64,000 nt of DNA from the NCBI GenBank assembly GCA_913056235.1, contig CAJXMW010000005.1:124001-188000 (forward strand), written 5' to 3'. The DNA is from an uncultured Fodinibius sp. GTDB lineage: Bacteria > Bacteroidota > Rhodothermia > Balneolales > Balneolaceae. Every line of letters starts with the position of its first letter. The stretch's first letter is position 1. Below the pieces are notes generated by a model. That model worked only from the letters and a program-made list of their open reading frames with translations, did no database searches and was not told the DNA's origin. Below, in pieces: positions 11,480 through 38,907 of this stretch. The position numbers and the translations under genes are program-made.

Positions 11480-11632
11480 AGTCTGATCGTGATATTTATT
11501 AAACCTTTACTTTTTCTCTGACCCTGGTTGAGAGAATGATATAAATAGTACCAATTTTTCTGTGATTGATGATATTACTTTTCTACCAGATTTAAAAATA
11601 TTTAAGGGCGTAAATTTTAGAGAAACAACAAC

Positions 11633-13885
11633 TTACTCGTAACGATATACGCTCTTCACGCCGTCTACTTTCTGAAGTTTTGCAATTATGCGATCCAAGT
11701 GATCAATGTCTTCCACATAAACGGTGAGGATACCTTCGAACATTCCACTGTCGCTGTTCACATTGATACTTTTCATGTTGGTTTCAAGCGATTTTGACAA
11801 GACATCAGTAATATCATTAATCATGCCCACACGATCTTCGCCAATCACTTTAACAGCTCCCAGAAACTGGGAATCAATATTTTTGGCCCACGACACATCC
11901 ACGATCCGCTCGCCGTCGGTCTGGATAAGATGATGGATGTTTTTACAATTTGAGCGATGAATCTTCACATCACCTGTGCGACTTATAAAGCCCATCACGT
12001 CATCACCCGGAATGGGATTACAGCAGTTTGCATAATTATACTTCACATTCGTGAGCTCACCGTTGATGATCAGCGCCTTCTCATCACTAACCGAACGCGC
12101 CGCATTGATATATGTTTCCTGAATTTCTTCTTCGGTGGCCGGAGCTGTCTTCTCTTCCTCTTCTTGATCCTCTTCGATACGACCTTTGCTGGTATATTGC
12201 TTAACAGCCTTAAACAACTTATTTACATCAAATGTACCTTTACCAATATCGTAAAACAGGTCTTGGGTAGAATCAAAATTTAGCTTTTGGGCAACTTTGG
12301 TGAGATCCTGATCAGAAATCTCAACATTACCCCGCTTGGCGCGTTTTTCCCAGATTTCACGTCCCTCGTCGGCCGTCTGCCGCTCTTTCTGTTTGATAAA
12401 CTGACGGATCCGTGACTTCGCCTTGTGGGTCACCACATCGTTGATCCAATCCGGATTGAGGTTAATTTTATTTCCCGTGATGATCTCAACCTGGTCACCA
12501 ATATCCAGTTTCTGACGTAGCGGCGCCATTTTGCCATTAATTTTGGCAGCAATGGCTCGTTCGCCAATTTCGCTGTGAATATCAAACGCAAAGTCGATGG
12601 GAGTAGCTCCCTGCGGCAGAGTACGCAGCTCACCATCCGGGGTAAACACATAAATCTCATCCTGGTAGAGATTAAGCTGGAAATCCTTTACAAATTCCGT
12701 AGCCGCATCAGGACGAGGGTTGTCAAGTATATCACGCACCCAGTGGACAAACTTGTCCAGTGTCTCCGAACCACTGCCTTTGCCCTCTTTGTACTTCCAG
12801 TGCGCAGCTACTCCTTTTTCGGCGATATCATCCATATGTCGCGTGCGGATCTGCACCTCTACCTTGCGTCCCTTTTTGGTAATCACCGTGGTATGCAAGG
12901 ATTGATAACCGTTGGCCTTGGGCACCGAGATAAAATCACGGAATCGCTTCGGAATGGGCGTATACCAGTCAGTAATAATAGAATAGACACGCCAGCAATC
13001 TTCTTTAGTATGCGGCTCTTCCAGGATGATGCGGATGGCAAACAGATCGTAAATCTCCTCAAAGGGCTTTTGTTGCCGCTGCATCTTGCGGAAAATTGAA
13101 TAGATATGTTTGGGACGCCCTTTCATCTCAAACGTAAAGCCCTGTTCATCCAGCTCGTCCTGAATGGGATCCATAAACTCCTCAATAAAAGCTTCACGGG
13201 CCTCTTTCTTCTCGCGCAACTTCCGCGCAATAAACTTGTACGAGTTGGGATCAATAACCTTAAAACAGAGGTCTTCCAACTCACTTTTGATATTAAACAA
13301 GCCAAACCGGTGTGCCAAAGGGGCGTACAACTCCATGGTTTCGGTGGCCTTTTCCATCTGCTTTTCGCGCGGCAAGTGCTGTATAGTACGCATATTATGC
13401 AAGCGGTCGGCAAATTTGATCAGTACCACGCGGATGTCCTCAGCCATGGAGAGGAGCATCTTCATAAAGGTTTCGGCCTGTTTGGTGTTGCGGCTCTTGA
13501 AAACCCCAGTAATCTTGGTTACACCGTCAATTAAATGAGAAACCGTATCGCCAAACTTTTCTTCGATATCTTCAAGAGTGACTCCGGTATCCTCTACGGT
13601 ATCGTGCAGCAGCGATGCCACTACCGACACATCATCGATATTGATCTCAGAAGCCACAATCTTAGCTACAGACACCGGATGATAATAAAAAGGTTCCCCG
13701 GAAGCGCGATCGACATCTTTGTGAGAAATATAGCAGAGCTTGAACGCTCGTGCTATCATCTGCTCATCCACCTCTTCAAGGCTGTCTCGGCATACCTTTA
13801 GCAGCTGATCCAGATCCTCTTGCTGAGGTGGATCCAGAGTATAATCATCTAAATCGATATTATATTTCGTCTTGGTGTCTGCCAT
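11633..13885 (-). CDS. RelA/SpoT bifunctional (p)ppGpp synthetase/hydrolase
   Basis: The 750-residue protein has the full long-RSH architecture. The N-terminal HD hydrolase has YYHPVSVAKIV and LLHDTVEDTG (HD pair). The synthetase domain contains YDLFAIRIIL and NGYQSLHTTVI. A TGS domain (IYVFTPDGELRTLPQGATPIDFAFDIH), a helical/zinc-finger part with NCCNPIPGDD and a C-terminal ACT domain follow. The intact HDxxED motif suggests active hydrolysis, so this is a SpoT/Rel-type bifunctional alarmone enzyme. No other RSH gene is in the window. Confidence 0.95.
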   Translation of the reverse strand: MADTKTKYNIDLDDYTLDPPQQEDLDQLLKVCRDSLEEVDEQMIARAFKLCYISHKDVDRASGEPFYYHPVSVAKIVASEINIDDVSVVASLLHDTVEDTGVTLEDIEEKFGDTVSHLIDGVTKITGVFKSRNTKQAETFMKMLLSMAEDIRVVLIKFADRLHNMRTIQHLPREKQMEKATETMELYAPLAHRFGLFNIKSELEDLCFKVIDPNSYKFIARKLREKKEAREAFIEEFMDPIQDELDEQGFTFEMKGRPKHIYSIFRKMQRQQKPFEEIYDLFAIRIILEEPHTKEDCWRVYSIITDWYTPIPKRFRDFISVPKANGYQSLHTTVITKKGRKVEVQIRTRHMDDIAEKGVAAHWKYKEGKGSGSETLDKFVHWVRDILDNPRPDAATEFVKDFQLNLYQDEIYVFTPDGELRTLPQGATPIDFAFDIHSEIGERAIAAKINGKMAPLRQKLDIGDQVEIITGNKINLNPDWINDVVTHKAKSRIRQFIKQKERQTADEGREIWEKRAKRGNVEISDQDLTKVAQKLNFDSTQDLFYDIGKGTFDVNKLFKAVKQYTSKGRIEEDQEEEEKTAPATEEEIQETYINAARSVSDEKALIINGELTNVKYNYANCCNPIPGDDVMGFISRTGDVKIHRSNCKNIHHLIQTDGERIVDVSWAKNIDSQFLGAVKVIGEDRVGMINDITDVLSKSLETNMKSINVNSDSGMFEGILTVYVEDIDHLDRIIAKLQKVDGVKSVYRYE

Positions 13886-33055: not shown

Positions 33056-33128
33056 GGGCCCGTAGCTCAGCGGTTAGAGCAGTCGACTCATAATCGATTG
33101 GCCGCAGGTTCAAATCCTGCCGGGCCCA
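33056..33128 (+). tRNA. tRNA with CAT anticodon, probably tRNA-Ile2
   Basis: The acceptor stem GGGCCCG pairs with CGGGCCC. The anticodon arm GTCGACTCATAATCGAT carries CAT and the T arm is GCAGGTTCAAATCCTGC. The stretch GGTTAGAGCAGTCGACTCATAATCGATTGG is closer to the E. coli isoleucine tRNA that decodes AUA (lysidine-modified) than to elongator or initiator methionine tRNA. It is the last tRNA before the integrase and the likely attachment gene of the element. No CCA is encoded. Confidence 0.9.
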
Positions 33129-33426
33129 CTTTTCTTTTCCTTCCCCTTACCTCCTCCAAGTCACCCTCAATTACATTTAAACGGTATATTTTAGGCCTAT
33201 TCCCTCCTTTCATACAAAAATACCTTCGTGAAAGCATTTCACTTTCTGCAACAATTTATGTAAATAGTGGGTACAAAAATGGGTACACCAGTTGGTACAT
33301 ATACCCACCTTTGCTTAAAGGCTCCAAAAGGCCTGTTAATTGATTAGAATCGATTGCAGAATTAGTCCTAGAGCCTGTAAAGTGGTAAAATCACAAATAT
33401 TGCACATTTGAAGAATAGAGGAAAGT

Positions 33427-34602
33427 ATGGCAAGTCTTAAGAAACGGGGAGATGTCTACTACATTCGGTTTTTTGCAAAAATAAATGGCAAACGAAAGCG
33501 AAAGGCACTGAGTCTAGATACTACTCAAAAAAGAGAGGCACAAAAACTATTAATTGAATATGAGGAAAAATTCCAGCGGGGCGAAATCGATCCGTTTAAC
33601 GGATGGAATCCTAAAAAGGAAGCCGAAAAGAAAAGACAAAAGCTACGGGGCAAATATATCGCCTTGCACAAGGCAGCCGATCAGTTTATTGAAGAACGTA
33701 GTCAGGCCAATCAGAATACCAAAGACAACTACCGGCGACACTTGGATATGCTAGAAGATCAGCTCGGACAGACTATGCCCGTAACGGAAATTATGGAAAA
33801 GGACATACGGGAGTTTTGCTTTCGGGATGATCTCGCTCCGGCCACCCAGGCAAGCTACCTTCGACACTTGAAGGTGTTCTTCAAATGGATGCACGAAAAA
33901 GAAATCCTGAAGGAGGATATTACCGCTGATATTAAACCACCGAAAGTCCCGCAGAAGATTGCTCAGAAAACGATTTCAAGAGAAGAGCTCGACAGGGTGT
34001 TTGAAGCCTACGACAAATTCTATAAAGAGCAGAAAGAGAAAGGCTACGTGACCAAACCACATCAAATGCGGTTATGGTTTAAGCCAATGATCAACACCAT
34101 GTATTACTGTGGCATGCGGGCAAGCGAGGCGGTAAATCTTCAATGGAACGAGGTTGACCTTGAGGGAGATCCTGATGATCCGGACGATTACGGCCATATC
34201 ATGATTATCAACACCGATGAAAATACCACAAAGTCTAAAAAAGAGCGCTCGATTCCTATTAGGGAACCACTGAAGCCGTGGCTGGTGGAATGGCACGAGA
34301 AGCAAGGCGAACCCAAGGATGGATACGTTTTTCCAAGCTCGACGGGCTTGAACCGTTTTCACGGGATGACGGCAGGATCATTATCCCGATCTTTTAAAAA
34401 GTTCGTACGACTGGCCGAAGATGTACCCAATTCTATAACCTTGCACGGCCTCCGACACTCATGTGCTACCGACCTGTTGCGTAAAGGGGTCCCTATTCAT
34501 TTGGTCCAAAAAATAATGGGACACTCGTCCATTGATGTCACCCAGATTTATGAGCATCTGGATCAGAAGGACCTTAAAAACGCAGTAAAGGGAATTGATT
34601 AA
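33427..34602 (+). CDS. Tyrosine recombinase (phage/island integrase)
   Basis: The 391-residue protein has an Arm-type N-terminus (KKRGDVYYIRFFAKINGKRKRKALSL), a SAM-like core-binding domain (ADQFIEERSQANQNTKDNYRRHL) and a catalytic domain. Catalytic residues visible are Arg in YCGMRASEAVNL, HGLRHSCAT (HxxR), GHSSIDVTQIYEHL (His and the Tyr nucleophile). It would integrate the element at an attachment site; its start is 298 bases after the CAT tRNA. The intact active site suggests it could still be functional. Confidence 0.93.
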   Translation: MASLKKRGDVYYIRFFAKINGKRKRKALSLDTTQKREAQKLLIEYEEKFQRGEIDPFNGWNPKKEAEKKRQKLRGKYIALHKAADQFIEERSQANQNTKDNYRRHLDMLEDQLGQTMPVTEIMEKDIREFCFRDDLAPATQASYLRHLKVFFKWMHEKEILKEDITADIKPPKVPQKIAQKTISREELDRVFEAYDKFYKEQKEKGYVTKPHQMRLWFKPMINTMYYCGMRASEAVNLQWNEVDLEGDPDDPDDYGHIMIINTDENTTKSKKERSIPIREPLKPWLVEWHEKQGEPKDGYVFPSSTGLNRFHGMTAGSLSRSFKKFVRLAEDVPNSITLHGLRHSCATDLLRKGVPIHLVQKIMGHSSIDVTQIYEHLDQKDLKNAVKGID

Positions 34603-34704: not shown

Positions 34705-34800
34705 AAATTCGGAAATAATTCGGAATATTTGGGAGGAAATTTACGAGTACCTGGATTAACGACCATTAAATTACAATATGAGGGATTGACTACTTACAGT

Positions 34801-35532
34801 ATGACTAAGCAACAAGGAAACAATCTGATCAAAATACTCTGCAGTTCACTTTGGATCAGTCACTCCATCAACAAGGAACTTTCTGTACCTGATTTGGCTG
34901 TTGATTATAAAAAGCTAAGGGGCTCATTTCATCAGGAGATGGATGAGGCATTGAGGGAATTTGATGAGACAAGTATGAAAGAGGTCGAAGAGTCCCCTTT
35001 TAAACCGAGGTTGAGCAACATCGATAATAAAATTTCGAAACTATCGGACCAATTCAGGACAAATGCACCAAAACCTATTAAGCGGGAAAGCCCTTCAAAA
35101 GGTGAGTCCAAATATGTGGAGATACATGATATCAACGTTGAGGAACACCCGATCATAAAGAAATGGTTTAAAAAGTTTACCTTTATGGGAGGGAATCACT
35201 GCTATCAATTTGAATCAGATGATCTGAACACTCCTAAAAGGAAACTCTCAAAAATTGCCAGCTACCAGATCAAGTATGATGCGATGCAGCAAGTTGAAGA
35301 TGAAGCTTCTTTAAACGGTCAATATCATTTTCAAAAAGAATTTCAAAAAGTCCCGGATGCGTGCAAGTATTTCAGGAAGAAATTGGGCGATCAATATACA
35401 AGGGACTTACTCAAAGAAAAGATTAAAAACCGAGCCCTGATATATGAAAATGGAGATATCTTAGAGGATTGGTCAACGATTAATCGCAGAATAAACGCAT
35501 GGTTACATCATGAAAAGAATAAATATAATTGA
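34801..35532 (+). CDS. Hypothetical protein of the integrated element
   Basis: The ORF track starts at a TTG (34729); I prefer the first ATG at 34801 (MTKQQGNNLIKILCSSLWIS), giving 243 residues. The protein is helical and charged, with a disordered-looking middle (KRESPSKGESKYVEIHD) and a C-terminal helical part (DQYTRDLLKEKIKNRALIYENGDILEDWSTINRRINAWLHHEK). I recognise no family and no catalytic motif. It lies between the integrase and the oppositely oriented Fic gene, so it belongs to the element's cargo. Confidence 0.6.
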   Translation: MTKQQGNNLIKILCSSLWISHSINKELSVPDLAVDYKKLRGSFHQEMDEALREFDETSMKEVEESPFKPRLSNIDNKISKLSDQFRTNAPKPIKRESPSKGESKYVEIHDINVEEHPIIKKWFKKFTFMGGNHCYQFESDDLNTPKRKLSKIASYQIKYDAMQQVEDEASLNGQYHFQKEFQKVPDACKYFRKKLGDQYTRDLLKEKIKNRALIYENGDILEDWSTINRRINAWLHHEKNKYN

Positions 35533-35591: not shown

Positions 35592-37136
35592 TCAAAGTCT
35601 AAATATCTCTTGGTATTTCTCCTCTAACATAACCACTTCCTCTTCGGTCAACGCCTCAAACTCTTTAGTACGAGCACGTTTGGATAGCTGACCATCATTT
35701 TGACGTAAGAAGCCGATAAGGTTTTCCATGTCCTTGTCTGGCATATCAAAGTGCTCAGAAATAAAGGTTCTCATCTTGTCATGTCGCTCCAGGTACTGAA
35801 CTTCTTCCGGTAACGTATCGGTAACCGTTTCTTCTACGCATTCATATAGAAATTCAGCATGTTTGGTAGCATCGAAATAGCGGTAAAGATCGATGGTATT
35901 GTTTAAAACTTTGACATTTCCATCTGGTGTTGGCTCCCATTCAATGAAGTCAAGCCGTGGCTTGGAATAAGATTCCAGTACTTCCCTATACTCATCAATT
36001 CGGTCAAGGATAACCGCTGAAACAGGAAAAATAAGTCCCTTCGGCGCAAATTCTTTTTTAGCTAAAACATGATGAATTAAATACCGGTGTACACGGCCGT
36101 TTCCGTCAGCAAAGGGATGGATAAACACAAAGCCAAAGGCAATGAGGGTAGCCGCTAACACTGGATCGTAATCACTATTAATTAGTGATTCGTTTGTTTT
36201 TAGTAAGCCTTCCATGAGTTGGGGAACATCTTGCCACTTTGCAGAAATATGATCTGGGACCGGCTTGCTATTCACTCGGTTATGGACACCTATAAACCCT
36301 CCTTCTTTTCGCCAGCCCATATCCACAAATCGACGGTCTTCTATAACAATCTCTTGGAGTCGCAATAGTTCATCCTTAGTAAGGTCTTTCTGGCCGGCCT
36401 GACCAATGGCTTTACCCCAACGTTCTGCACGATTTTCCGGAGGTGTTTCGCCCTCTATGGCATAGGAGGCTTTGGAATCTTTGAGCATAAGGAAAGCAGC
36501 GGCTCTTGATAACAAATCAGGATGAACCTTACCTATCGTGTCTTTTACCTTTTTTCCTAAGTCTTCAATACTAAAATGTTCGAGCTTTTCTGTTCGGCGT
36601 ACCAAAGGACAGAAATCCTTATTACCTGGTAGGTTATTCCATACTCTGTGGCGCTTGGATCTTTCTTTAGATCCTGGATATTGTAAATCAGGATCAAGAG
36701 AATCTACATAGTTACCTGTTTTGACGTCATCTACATTAAGTTTTTGATCTGTTAACCATTCATAGAAAAACCATATTCTTCTACTGTATTGACCGGTAGG
36801 TTGCTCTTTGACAATAGCTTCAATCTCACCTTTGTCAATTTTTTCGAATAATTTATTGAGAACTAAGAGGTCAACACCTTCATATCGCAAAGCAAATGTG
36901 AGATGGCCCAATAAGGATTCGTCTGGTGTATGGATATTTCTAAATATCTGCCAGCGTCCCTCACTATATCTTTTATGTTTGGTGCTGATAGCAGAAATAT
37001 GTTCCGGCAAAGGGACTTCCAGGTCATATCGATATATTAAGGCACTATACCCTGCCAGTTTCATTCCAGACTCAGGAAGAGTATATTTACGAAAAACTGT
37101 TATATGATCTGAAAAGTTATTCCCTTCGGCCATCAC
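35592..37136 (-). CDS. Fic-domain protein with N-terminal inhibitory motif (class II)
   Basis: The 514-residue protein carries the Fic active site HPFADGNGRVHRYLI, matching HxFx(D/E)GNGRxxR, for AMP transfer from ATP to a target hydroxyl. An inhibitory helix motif, SYAIEG (S-x-x-x-E-G), lies about 130 residues before it, which makes this a self-inhibited class II Fic enzyme. A helical C-terminal region follows. No separate antitoxin gene is next to it. Upstream lie repeated GATTACT motifs that probably control it. Its role in the element could be stability or host-target modification; the target is unknown. Confidence 0.9.
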   Translation of the reverse strand: MMAEGNNFSDHITVFRKYTLPESGMKLAGYSALIYRYDLEVPLPEHISAISTKHKRYSEGRWQIFRNIHTPDESLLGHLTFALRYEGVDLLVLNKLFEKIDKGEIEAIVKEQPTGQYSRRIWFFYEWLTDQKLNVDDVKTGNYVDSLDPDLQYPGSKERSKRHRVWNNLPGNKDFCPLVRRTEKLEHFSIEDLGKKVKDTIGKVHPDLLSRAAAFLMLKDSKASYAIEGETPPENRAERWGKAIGQAGQKDLTKDELLRLQEIVIEDRRFVDMGWRKEGGFIGVHNRVNSKPVPDHISAKWQDVPQLMEGLLKTNESLINSDYDPVLAATLIAFGFVFIHPFADGNGRVHRYLIHHVLAKKEFAPKGLIFPVSAVILDRIDEYREVLESYSKPRLDFIEWEPTPDGNVKVLNNTIDLYRYFDATKHAEFLYECVEETVTDTLPEEVQYLERHDKMRTFISEHFDMPDKDMENLIGFLRQNDGQLSKRARTKEFEALTEEEVVMLEEKYQEIFRL

Positions 37137-37150
37137 TTAGAAGTATCTAT

Positions 37151-37272
37151 TAACAATTACTTTTGAGTTAATATCATAAAAATCGATTACTTTTTATAAA
37201 AAACAGTTATATATAGGGTGTTTTTATAAAAATCGATTACTTTTTTGCCGGAGTAATCATGAGTAATCTTTT
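37151..37272. promoter_or_regulatory. Repeated GATTACT/AGTAATC operator-like cluster upstream of fic
   Basis: A perfect 20-base direct repeat, ATAAAAATCGATTACTTTTT, occurs at 37176-37195 and 37226-37245, exactly 50 bases apart. A weaker ATTACTTTT copy lies at about 37156, and two inverted AGTAATC copies at 37252-37258 and 37265-37271. All are within 140 bases upstream of the Fic start. This pattern fits cooperative repressor binding. Confidence 0.6.
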
Positions 37273-37507: not shown

Positions 37508-37604
37508 TTTCTATAGCATTTCTATAGTTCGGGTGCCGATTTCTATAGTTCTACGACCTATATCTATAGCAAACTGCGACATTTCTATACATTCCATATA
37601 GAAA
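37508..37604. repeat. Helically phased TTTCTATAG iteron-like array
   Basis: Five direct copies of TTTCTATAG (two with one change: TATCTATAG, TTTCTATAC) start at 37508, 37519, 37540, 37561 and 37582, that is with steps of 11, 21, 21 and 21 bases, one or two DNA turns. An inverted copy (TATAGAAA, 37597-37604) closes the array. It lies about 80 bases upstream of an HTH gene and a truncated replication-initiator-like gene. The regular spacing is typical of initiator iterons. Confidence 0.75.
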
Positions 37605-37683
37605 TAAAATTCTCTAAATCATTGATATACATGCATTTACGGTATATTCAGGTAAAGCAAATCACCAATGAAAACATTTACCG

Positions 37684-37941
37684 ATGAGTGAAGAAAAATT
37701 AAACAGAATCGAGAAAAAACTGGACCTTCTTCTTAACTCTAACAAACATCGCATTAACGAAAAGAAATATATAACGGCTCGGGAAGTTGAGGATCTTACC
37801 GGGCTCAACTATAGAACCATTCTTAACCGCTCCAACCTGGACGAGGACCATCACCGCTATATCCCATCTATCCAATTCGGGGGCAGCCGCCGAAAATATT
37901 TCGAGCGCAAGGTAATCGAACGCATTTTTCACCTGAGCTAG
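37684..37941 (+). CDS. Small HTH DNA-binding protein
   Basis: The 85-residue protein has a coiled N-terminus (EEKLNRIEKKLDLLLNSNKH) and a helix-turn-helix of the AlpA/excisionase type (KYITAREVEDLTGLNYRTILNRSNL). It ends with GGSRRKYFERKVIERIF, like the wing and the end helix of MerR-fold excisionase proteins. It directly follows the iteron-like array and ends 9 bases before the rep-like fragment, so it may regulate the array or assist recombination. The exact role is not shown by the sequence. Confidence 0.7.
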   Translation: MSEEKLNRIEKKLDLLLNSNKHRINEKKYITAREVEDLTGLNYRTILNRSNLDEDHHRYIPSIQFGGSRRKYFERKVIERIFHLS

Positions 37942-38174: not shown

Positions 38175-38462
38175 ATGGAAAACGCTGTACAAATAACGTT
38201 AAGTGACGAACTGCTCGACGCATTAACCCAGTCAATCAAAGAAGCTGTCAAAGAGGAGCTGCCCAAATACCAGGATAGTTTTCAGAAAGATTGGCTTTCG
38301 ACGGAAGAAGTGATGGAGATGTTAAACGTTTCTAGACGGACTTTACAAAATTATCGAGACGAAGGGGAAATTTCCTATTTCCAGAAAGGACGAAAGATCC
38401 TTTATCCGAGAGAAGGAATTGAAGAGTTTCTGCGTAAAAATACGACTAAAGCCTATCGATAA
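38175..38462 (+). CDS. Excisionase-family helix-turn-helix protein
   Basis: The 95-residue protein has a helical N-terminus (LSDELLDALTQSIKEAVKEELPKY) followed by the excisionase-type HTH (WLSTEEVMEMLNVSRRTLQNYRDEGEISYFQKGRKILYPREGIEEFL). This order and length are typical of the small HTH proteins of Bacteroidota conjugative transposons and islands. It probably directs excision with the integrase or controls element genes. Confidence 0.85.
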   Translation: MENAVQITLSDELLDALTQSIKEAVKEELPKYQDSFQKDWLSTEEVMEMLNVSRRTLQNYRDEGEISYFQKGRKILYPREGIEEFLRKNTTKAYR

Positions 38463-38541
38463 TAGGTTGTAGAAAAAGGAGGCTGACCAAGTTCACTTGT
38501 TGTTTAATCCTTTCACCTTAATAGCTCAAATTTTCTTCTAT

Positions 38542-38907
38542 ATGTCTAACAATTCCGAACATTGCTGCCTTTCTTGTGGGATAGATATCTCAGATAAACG
38601 CATTGATGCGAAGTACTGCAGCGACCGTTGCCGCATGCGGTACCGACGCGCCCAGAAAAACAGCAAATTAGTAAACGAACTGATTGATCTTTTCACTCAG
38701 ATACCGAACCATTCCGTACACAACACAGGTGAAGGGGTCTGCCTCCAATCGTATGACGCAATAAACGGAAAAACAGAAAATTGGTGGGGTTCGGAGCTAA
38801 GAAGTATGTCAAACCAACGGTTAAAAGACCTGATTAAGAAGAAAAGGGTACTGTTGACCGGGGATGTAATAGGAAAATTCGTTAAAAAATTCTTCCAAAA
38901 TTCCTGA
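38542..38907 (+). CDS. Small zinc-ribbon protein
   Basis: I start at the ATG at 38542 (MSNNSEHCCLSCG), giving 121 residues, since the 15 extra residues of the ORF track are hydrophobic and not conserved-looking. CLSCGIDISDKRIDAKYCSDRCRMRYRRAQK is a C-x2-C ... C-x3-C treble-clef/zinc-ribbon with a basic tail, as in other small mobile-element proteins. The rest (RLKDLIKKKRVLLTGDVIGKF) is helical. The function is unknown; nucleic-acid binding is likely from the finger and the basic stretch. Confidence 0.7.
   Translation: MSNNSEHCCLSCGIDISDKRIDAKYCSDRCRMRYRRAQKNSKLVNELIDLFTQIPNHSVHNTGEGVCLQSYDAINGKTENWWGSELRSMSNQRLKDLIKKKRVLLTGDVIGKFVKKFFQNS

Follow-up and report, generated by a model that had tools for sequence, protein, structure and literature searches.

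A phased array of short direct repeats upstream of a phage O-like initiator gene as a probable origin component of tRNA-Met islands in the Balneolaceae

RESULTS

Genes and features of the locus

The DNA analyzed here was a stretch of 64 kb (“the window”) from a genome that belongs, as judged from its named relatives, to the Fodinibius group of the Balneolaceae. The genes for tRNA-Leu and tRNA-Met are followed in this stretch by an integrase gene, ORF-B, a Fic gene on the opposite strand, a repeat array, the genes for HTH85, an O-like protein, and an HTH_17 protein, and a small treble-clef-like ORF. The features are as follows.

33056–33129, + strand: tRNA-Met (CAT), integration site of the island (ARAGORN)
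33427–34602, + strand: tyrosine integrase, 391 aa, intact (PF00589, E 3e-33)
34729–35532, + strand: orphan ORF-B, a backbone gene, start probably at 34801 (24–48% identical homologue in seven relatives)
35592–37136, − strand: Fic-domain protein, 514 aa (PF02661, E 1.8e-13; PADLOC candidate PDC-S24, E 5e-206)
37508–37604, + strand: iteron-like array, with direct 9-mers at 37508, 37519, 37540, 37561, and 37582 and an inverted copy at 37596–37604
37651–37682, + strand: possible leader hairpin GGTAAA...TTTACC, immediately ahead of the HTH85 start and more distinct in relatives
37684–37941, + strand: HTH85, 85 aa, N-terminal helix plus MerR/Xis-like winged helix
37951–38169, + strand: O-like replication initiator with in-frame internal deletion, 72 aa left (alignment; PHROG O-like, 3e-6)
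38175–38462, + strand: HTH_17 protein, 95 aa (PF12728, E 6e-17; 82–88% identical in two relatives)
38497–38907, + strand: small treble-clef/zinc-finger-like ORF (two relatives have a 76% identical ORF; the match to PF09889, E 1e-4, falls short of the cutoff)

The ORF-B homologues of the seven relatives sit between the integrase gene and the array as well, and ORF-B had no match in Pfam or PHROG. No homologue of the Fic protein was found in the other fetched island stretches, and its gene is cargo specific to the window copy. Upstream of the Fic gene, two 44-nt direct repeats with the core ATAAAAATCGATTACTTTTT are located at 37152–37245. Because the stretch 37035–37245 is shared with genome G286 at 77% identity (locus L106, 2800–3011), the Fic gene and its upstream DNA may travel as a single mobile cargo unit.

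The repeat array in the window

Three of the five direct copies (37508, 37519, and 37540) are exact TTTCTATAG, and those at 37561 and 37582 are the variants TATCTATAG and TTTCTATAC, respectively. The copies follow each other in steps of 11, 21, 21, and 21 bp, and the array is closed by the inverted copy TTTCTATAT on the minus strand, which has one mismatch. An earlier note, made from the sequence of this stretch, had described such a phased, iteron-like array of five direct copies and one inverted copy, and every copy was located.

The 9-mer as such is not rare, since 31 copies with one mismatch were seen in the window compared to 22 expected. A search of the 3.97-Mb genome, as proposed by the earlier note, found exact 9-mer pairs within 33 bp at the array only (two overlapping matches), so that the paired cluster is unique in this genome, and a control with the reversed pattern gave zero matches in the same sequence. 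The refuting case named by the note, a 9-mer common throughout the genome at random spacing, therefore did not arise. Compared with shuffled sequences, the array was most self-similar at lag 21 (p = 0.0005). A model of four sites with 20–22-bp steps, which had been trained on the other elements only with the window excluded, scored 43 at the window array, and the maximum in 60 shuffled windows was 17.7. The phased cluster, rather than the bare 9-mer, is the exceptional feature. The A+T content of the array region is about 70% and is high near the array but not limited to any clear unwinding element. In a scan of 11 loci, the 330 bp preceding HTH85 contained no DnaA box (TTWTNCACA), and nothing in Rfam matched near the array.

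Conservation of the array in related islands

Twelve further copies of HTH85 with 74–98% identity were found within the family, spread over ten other genomes. The array was present in seven relatives, resulting in eight elements together with the window, all with four to five direct copies in 20–22-bp steps. An extra copy 11 bp upstream exists in the window, G274, and G151, and a clear inverted copy 13–14 bp past the last direct copy in six of the eight elements. The site positions were nearly constant with respect to the HTH85 start, about −166, −145, −125, and −104, with the inverted copy near −90. In leave-one-out scoring, the models reached 20–46, again compared to the shuffled maximum of 17.7. 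The window array was among the best kept, though the initiator gene of this element is broken.

The letters of the 9-mer differed from element to element: the window has TTCTATAG, G330 has TTCTGTAG, G089 has TTCTGAA, and G143 has TTCTAATA/TTCTATTA. In most cases, the inverted copy followed the letters of its own element. Site identity was 7.19 of 9 positions within an element versus 6.25 of 9 between elements (permutation p 0.0002). Such a fixed geometry with letters that change together would be expected of sites bound by one diverging protein.

A different kind of repeat was observed in L049 at 11480–11720, ahead of a second HTH85 copy that is not accompanied by an O-like gene. It comprises about 14 repeats of about 10 bp with TGYA steps, is strongly self-similar at lags of 10, 20, and 40, and does not resemble the 21-bp array.

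The O-like initiator

In most relatives, the first or second gene after HTH85 encodes an O-like protein of 270–294 aa. Full-length versions matched PF04492 (Phage_rep_O) above the Pfam cutoff, with E values of 5e-16, 2e-13, and 3e-9 and a best match of 59 bits versus a cutoff of 28.7. Against the PHROG families “replication initiation O-like,” the best E values of the relatives were 1e-17 to 1e-23, and the matches among annotated phages were mostly genes for replication protein O of lambda-like phages. The structure model of the protein displays a winged helix (residues 1–98), a disordered linker (99–156), and a helical C-terminal domain; a fold search with this model returned winged-helix regulators at E about 0.01, with no initiator near the top.

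The gene in the window retained about 51 N-terminal and about 15 C-terminal codons, joined in frame, of about 270–290, and the product was 71% identical over 45 aa to a 270-aa relative. The deleted segment runs from the recognition helix into the C-terminal domain, most of which is missing. Because of this deletion, the window copy scored only 17.8 bits against Phage_rep_O, which is below the cutoff. According to the earlier note, the array is followed downstream by an HTH gene and then by the front part of an initiator-like gene. Both genes are there, and the last 15 or so codons of the latter were kept in addition to its front. Intact elements with the same array and a full-length initiator, which the note had suggested to look for, were found among the relatives. 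Isolates that hold members with a full-length initiator are Fodinibius halophilus 2W32, Aliifodinibius salipaludis WN023, and Rhodohalobacter sulfatireducens WB101. A gene for a P-like helicase loader was not recognized downstream in two intact relatives, where several genes are without a known domain.

In G171, the only such case among the close relatives of HTH85, the place of the O-like gene is taken by a gene for a 771-aa primase (phrog_1139), and the array is absent. This suggests that replication modules, O-like or primase, were exchanged between elements.

L048 (8390–9831) and L052 (7890–9340) both contain paired adjacent O-like genes for products of about 205 aa and about 275 aa. In L051 (9416–11731), a primase-like protein of about 770 aa (phrog_1139) is encoded right after HTH85, in place of the O-like gene. 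Primase homologues with 53–55% identity follow HTH85 in L060–L062, with a tRNA-Arg identified in the case of L060 and L061.

A possible hairpin between array and HTH85

A possible leader hairpin spans 37640–37683 in the window and is located at the same place in L043–L052. Its inner dyad TTAGTGA-N7-TCACTAA is perfect in L050 and reads TTAATGA/TCATTAA in L045, and its outer stem varies in sequence, with 10 bp in L052 and 9 bp in L047. The folding free energy gave p ≤ 0.02 in 7 of 13 loci, and the p of 0.13 for the window copy was not significant. A test for contiguous stems was weak, and the hairpin was set aside as the main feature; it is possibly a leader RNA or an operator.

Integration sites and cargo of the islands

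Integrase orthologues with 61–91% identity were present in all 11 relative loci fetched, ten of which adjoin a tRNA-Met (CAT) and one a tRNA-Asn. In five relatives, a half-copy of the tRNA-Met that begins in the anticodon loop is located at the far end on the same contig and strand, at a distance from the tRNA-Met of 35.2 kb in G274, 33.3 kb in G151, 37.0 kb in G302 (contig C23), 30.4 kb in G143, and 31.3 kb in G211. The second copies in G151 and G274 are 48–63 nt long. The half-copies in G089 and G171 are on another contig. In the window, the corresponding portion of the tRNA-Met is 33086–33133, from the anticodon loop to the 3′ end. Half-copies of this kind are what integration into a tRNA gene usually leaves behind, and the islands of this family measure 30–37 kb where both ends were found. 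Of the features of tRNA-targeting elements, integrase and tRNA were found in the window and the relatives and the far-end repeat in five relatives, in agreement with the integrated element that the earlier note had assumed. Relatives of HTH85 were absent from viral contigs, and no description of the family was found in the open-license papers searched.

The island in G151 carries genes for a BREX system (BrxA, BrxB, BrxC, PglX, and BrxL), an E1-E2/JAB protein, a patatin-like phospholipase, and a reverse transcriptase-Mrr fusion, and that in G274 for a type I restriction-modification system, Druantia DruE, a CARF regulator, and a TIR protein. A similar gene pair for products of 279 and 331 aa is located at the distal end of both islands, and the pair in G151 matches AbiEii/AbiEi. 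Judged from these annotations, at least two islands of the family, G151 and G274 being the two examined, carry defense genes. A scan of two intact relatives, covering the genes that lie whole within the fetched pieces, recognized neither a relaxase, terminase, or capsid gene nor a partition gene.

The window island as a remnant

Homology of the window DNA to G151 reaches 39139, the last recognizable island sequence. No distal att site of the window island was found, neither in the window by exact and mismatched searches nor in the genome by DNA and pattern searches, and the genome holds just the complete tRNA-Met and no second half-copy. With its O-like gene deleted internally and the distal att copy lost, the window island is a remnant. 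Since the distal att site is gone and the O-like gene encodes neither the recognition helix nor the C-terminal domain, an origin at this position is probably silent unless the initiator is supplied in trans. Outward PCR, recommended by the earlier note, would probably be negative at this island because the distal att copy is lost.

The block 9873–31200 of the window precedes the tRNA genes, and in G081 (L104) it follows the tRNA-Met in inverted orientation. A chromosomal rearrangement of this block may explain the missing distal att site.

DISCUSSION

Evaluation of the array needs to consider which protein may bind to it. HTH85-type loci contained the array in 8 of 10 cases with an O-like gene and in none of 11 without (Fisher p 2e-4, a value that ignores relatedness). 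The latter include G171, G306, and the tRNA-Arg elements, so that an array without an O-like gene, which the earlier note had named as contrary evidence, did not occur in any relative. Of the two exceptions, L050 combines a truncated O-like gene with a degenerate-looking array, and L049 (G302), at its first HTH85 copy, has an O-like gene but no ORF-B. The elements with a distant HTH85 (L060–L068), several of them at tRNA-Arg and some with a related primase, were all without an array. In addition, HTH85 is 93–98% identical among the window, G274, G151, and G203, yet the 9-mers differ (TTCTATAG versus TTCTGTAG). Because the array tracks the O-like gene and HTH85 is nearly invariant where the 9-mers differ, the O-like protein is favored as the partner of the array.

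Alternatively, the array could be an operator for HTH85 or an excisionase site, where a MerR/Xis/BldC-like protein on phased direct repeats controls the operon or bends the DNA. In favor of this, the HTH85 gene is immediately downstream of the array, and in L049 the second HTH85 copy is preceded by a different array of 10-bp repeats. The AF2 model of HTH85 (pLDDT 82.5) has as its nearest folds BldC (Z 6.6), Pukovnik Xis (Z 6.0), and Tn916 Xis (Z 5.2), a weak level that is common among winged helices, and BldC binds direct repeats. From the model, HTH85 is more likely an excisionase or regulator. The 11 arrayless loci and the near identity of HTH85 despite differing 9-mers argue against the array being its binding site, as does the distance of about 4 kb between array and att site, and this explanation is unlikely.

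The earlier note had read the array as a theta-type origin inside an element that may descend from a plasmid. Short direct repeats phased at 21 bp, together with an inverted pair upstream of an initiator operon, do resemble the iterons and operators of plasmids (for phasing, see PMC5043065). However, the initiator is a phage O-family protein and not a plasmid Rep, the DnaA box is absent near the array, relaxase and partition genes were not recognized among those scanned in two intact relatives, and a plasmid collection yielded seven records with a short, weak O-like match, five of them Acinetobacter records of 0.66–4.1 Mb. The reading as an origin was retained, as the phased array and the relatives with a full-length initiator point to it, with an initiator of the phage lambda O type (PF04492). 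Plasmid descent is not indicated, the annotated matches being mainly O proteins of lambda-like phages, and an origin from an integrated plasmid is decidedly improbable. The chances of an accidental or low-complexity cluster are close to nil: the region is A+T rich and single 9-mer copies are common, but eight elements with conserved geometry, the model scores compared to shuffles, and the concerted change of letters within elements refuted this possibility.

The array is probably the initiator-binding part of the replication origin of a family of tRNA-Met integrative islands, with a remnant of such an island in the window. The best reading would be a phage O-type origin with plasmid-like phased iterons that is used upon excision of the island. 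Several observations speak against it: one O-like gene of G302 (L049) comes without the array, neither a clear unwinding element nor a DnaA box nor a P-like loader gene was recognized in the loci scanned, the iterons of lambda are placed and built differently, HTH85 also adjoins the array, and the window array is well kept despite its broken initiator gene. We infer initiator binding, unwinding, autoregulation, excision, and replication to proceed as follows. In intact members, the integrase would excise a circle, after which the HTH85-O operon would be expressed. The lambda O-type initiator may use its N-terminal winged helix to bind the direct 9-mers along a single face of the DNA and then open nearby A+T-rich DNA, and its C-terminal domain could recruit or load the host helicase. 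The inverted pair at the end of the array, nearest to the operon, may serve the initiator as an autorepression site, as in iteron plasmids. For the complete scenario, in which 30–37-kb defense islands at tRNA-Met genes of the Balneolaceae excise, replicate as circles by an O-type initiator and phased direct iterons, and in some cases swap this module for a primase, the chances are about even.

Parts of this arrangement have counterparts in known systems. The iterons of lambda are located inside the O gene and are inverted repeats of about 19 bp bound by dimers (PMC5043065). The island and lambda initiators share the family and, for the island protein as judged from its model, the order of winged helix, disordered linker, and separate C-terminal domain, and both systems place several phased initiator sites near the initiator gene. 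In contrast to lambda, the island sites are direct 9-mers 5′ of HTH85, joined by a single inverted copy, and a P-like loader was not recognized in two intact relatives. The PLE satellites of Vibrio cholerae are integrated islands with their own initiator and iterons in a noncoding region, and the DNA-binding part of the initiator and the origin co-vary (PMC8263062). The islands described here are likewise integrated, with an initiator of their own and iterons in noncoding DNA. RepA of PLE, however, belongs to another initiator family, its three iterons of about 30 bp are semipalindromic, and PLE depends on phage ICP1, whereas there is no known helper for the island family. PICIs possess an integrase, a small MerR/AlpA-type regulator, a replication gene, an iteron origin, and phage-interference genes (PMC6092414). 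All of these have equivalents in the island family, but PICIs use a primase-Rep with an origin 3′ of Rep and two iteron sets flanking A+T-rich DNA, and the islands have an O-type initiator, an array in the 5′ position, a size of 30–37 kb where both ends were found, and no recognized packaging gene. Iteron plasmids also have helically phased direct repeats with an inverted pair near the initiator promoter; they use another initiator family, and the island array is integrated and without a DnaA box. Mobile defense islands (PMC10121019) similarly carry defense cargo in a site-specific island, but the present family has its own replication module, which certain members appear to have swapped for a primase.

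Islands that possess an iteron origin, such as PLE and PICIs, were known, and lambda O with its iterons is classical; the islands described here appear to combine a phage-type initiator with a plasmid-like layout of repeats. Descriptions of defense islands often center on the cargo, and less is clear about the way the islands move. The present family provides a concrete replication module, a matched initiator and iterons with natural variants of both and isolates with a full-length initiator, which makes the replication of islands after excision and the paired evolution of initiator and origin testable. If the proposed explanation is true, BREX, restriction-modification, and Druantia genes would gain in copy number through replication, for example, when phages attack or the island is transferred.
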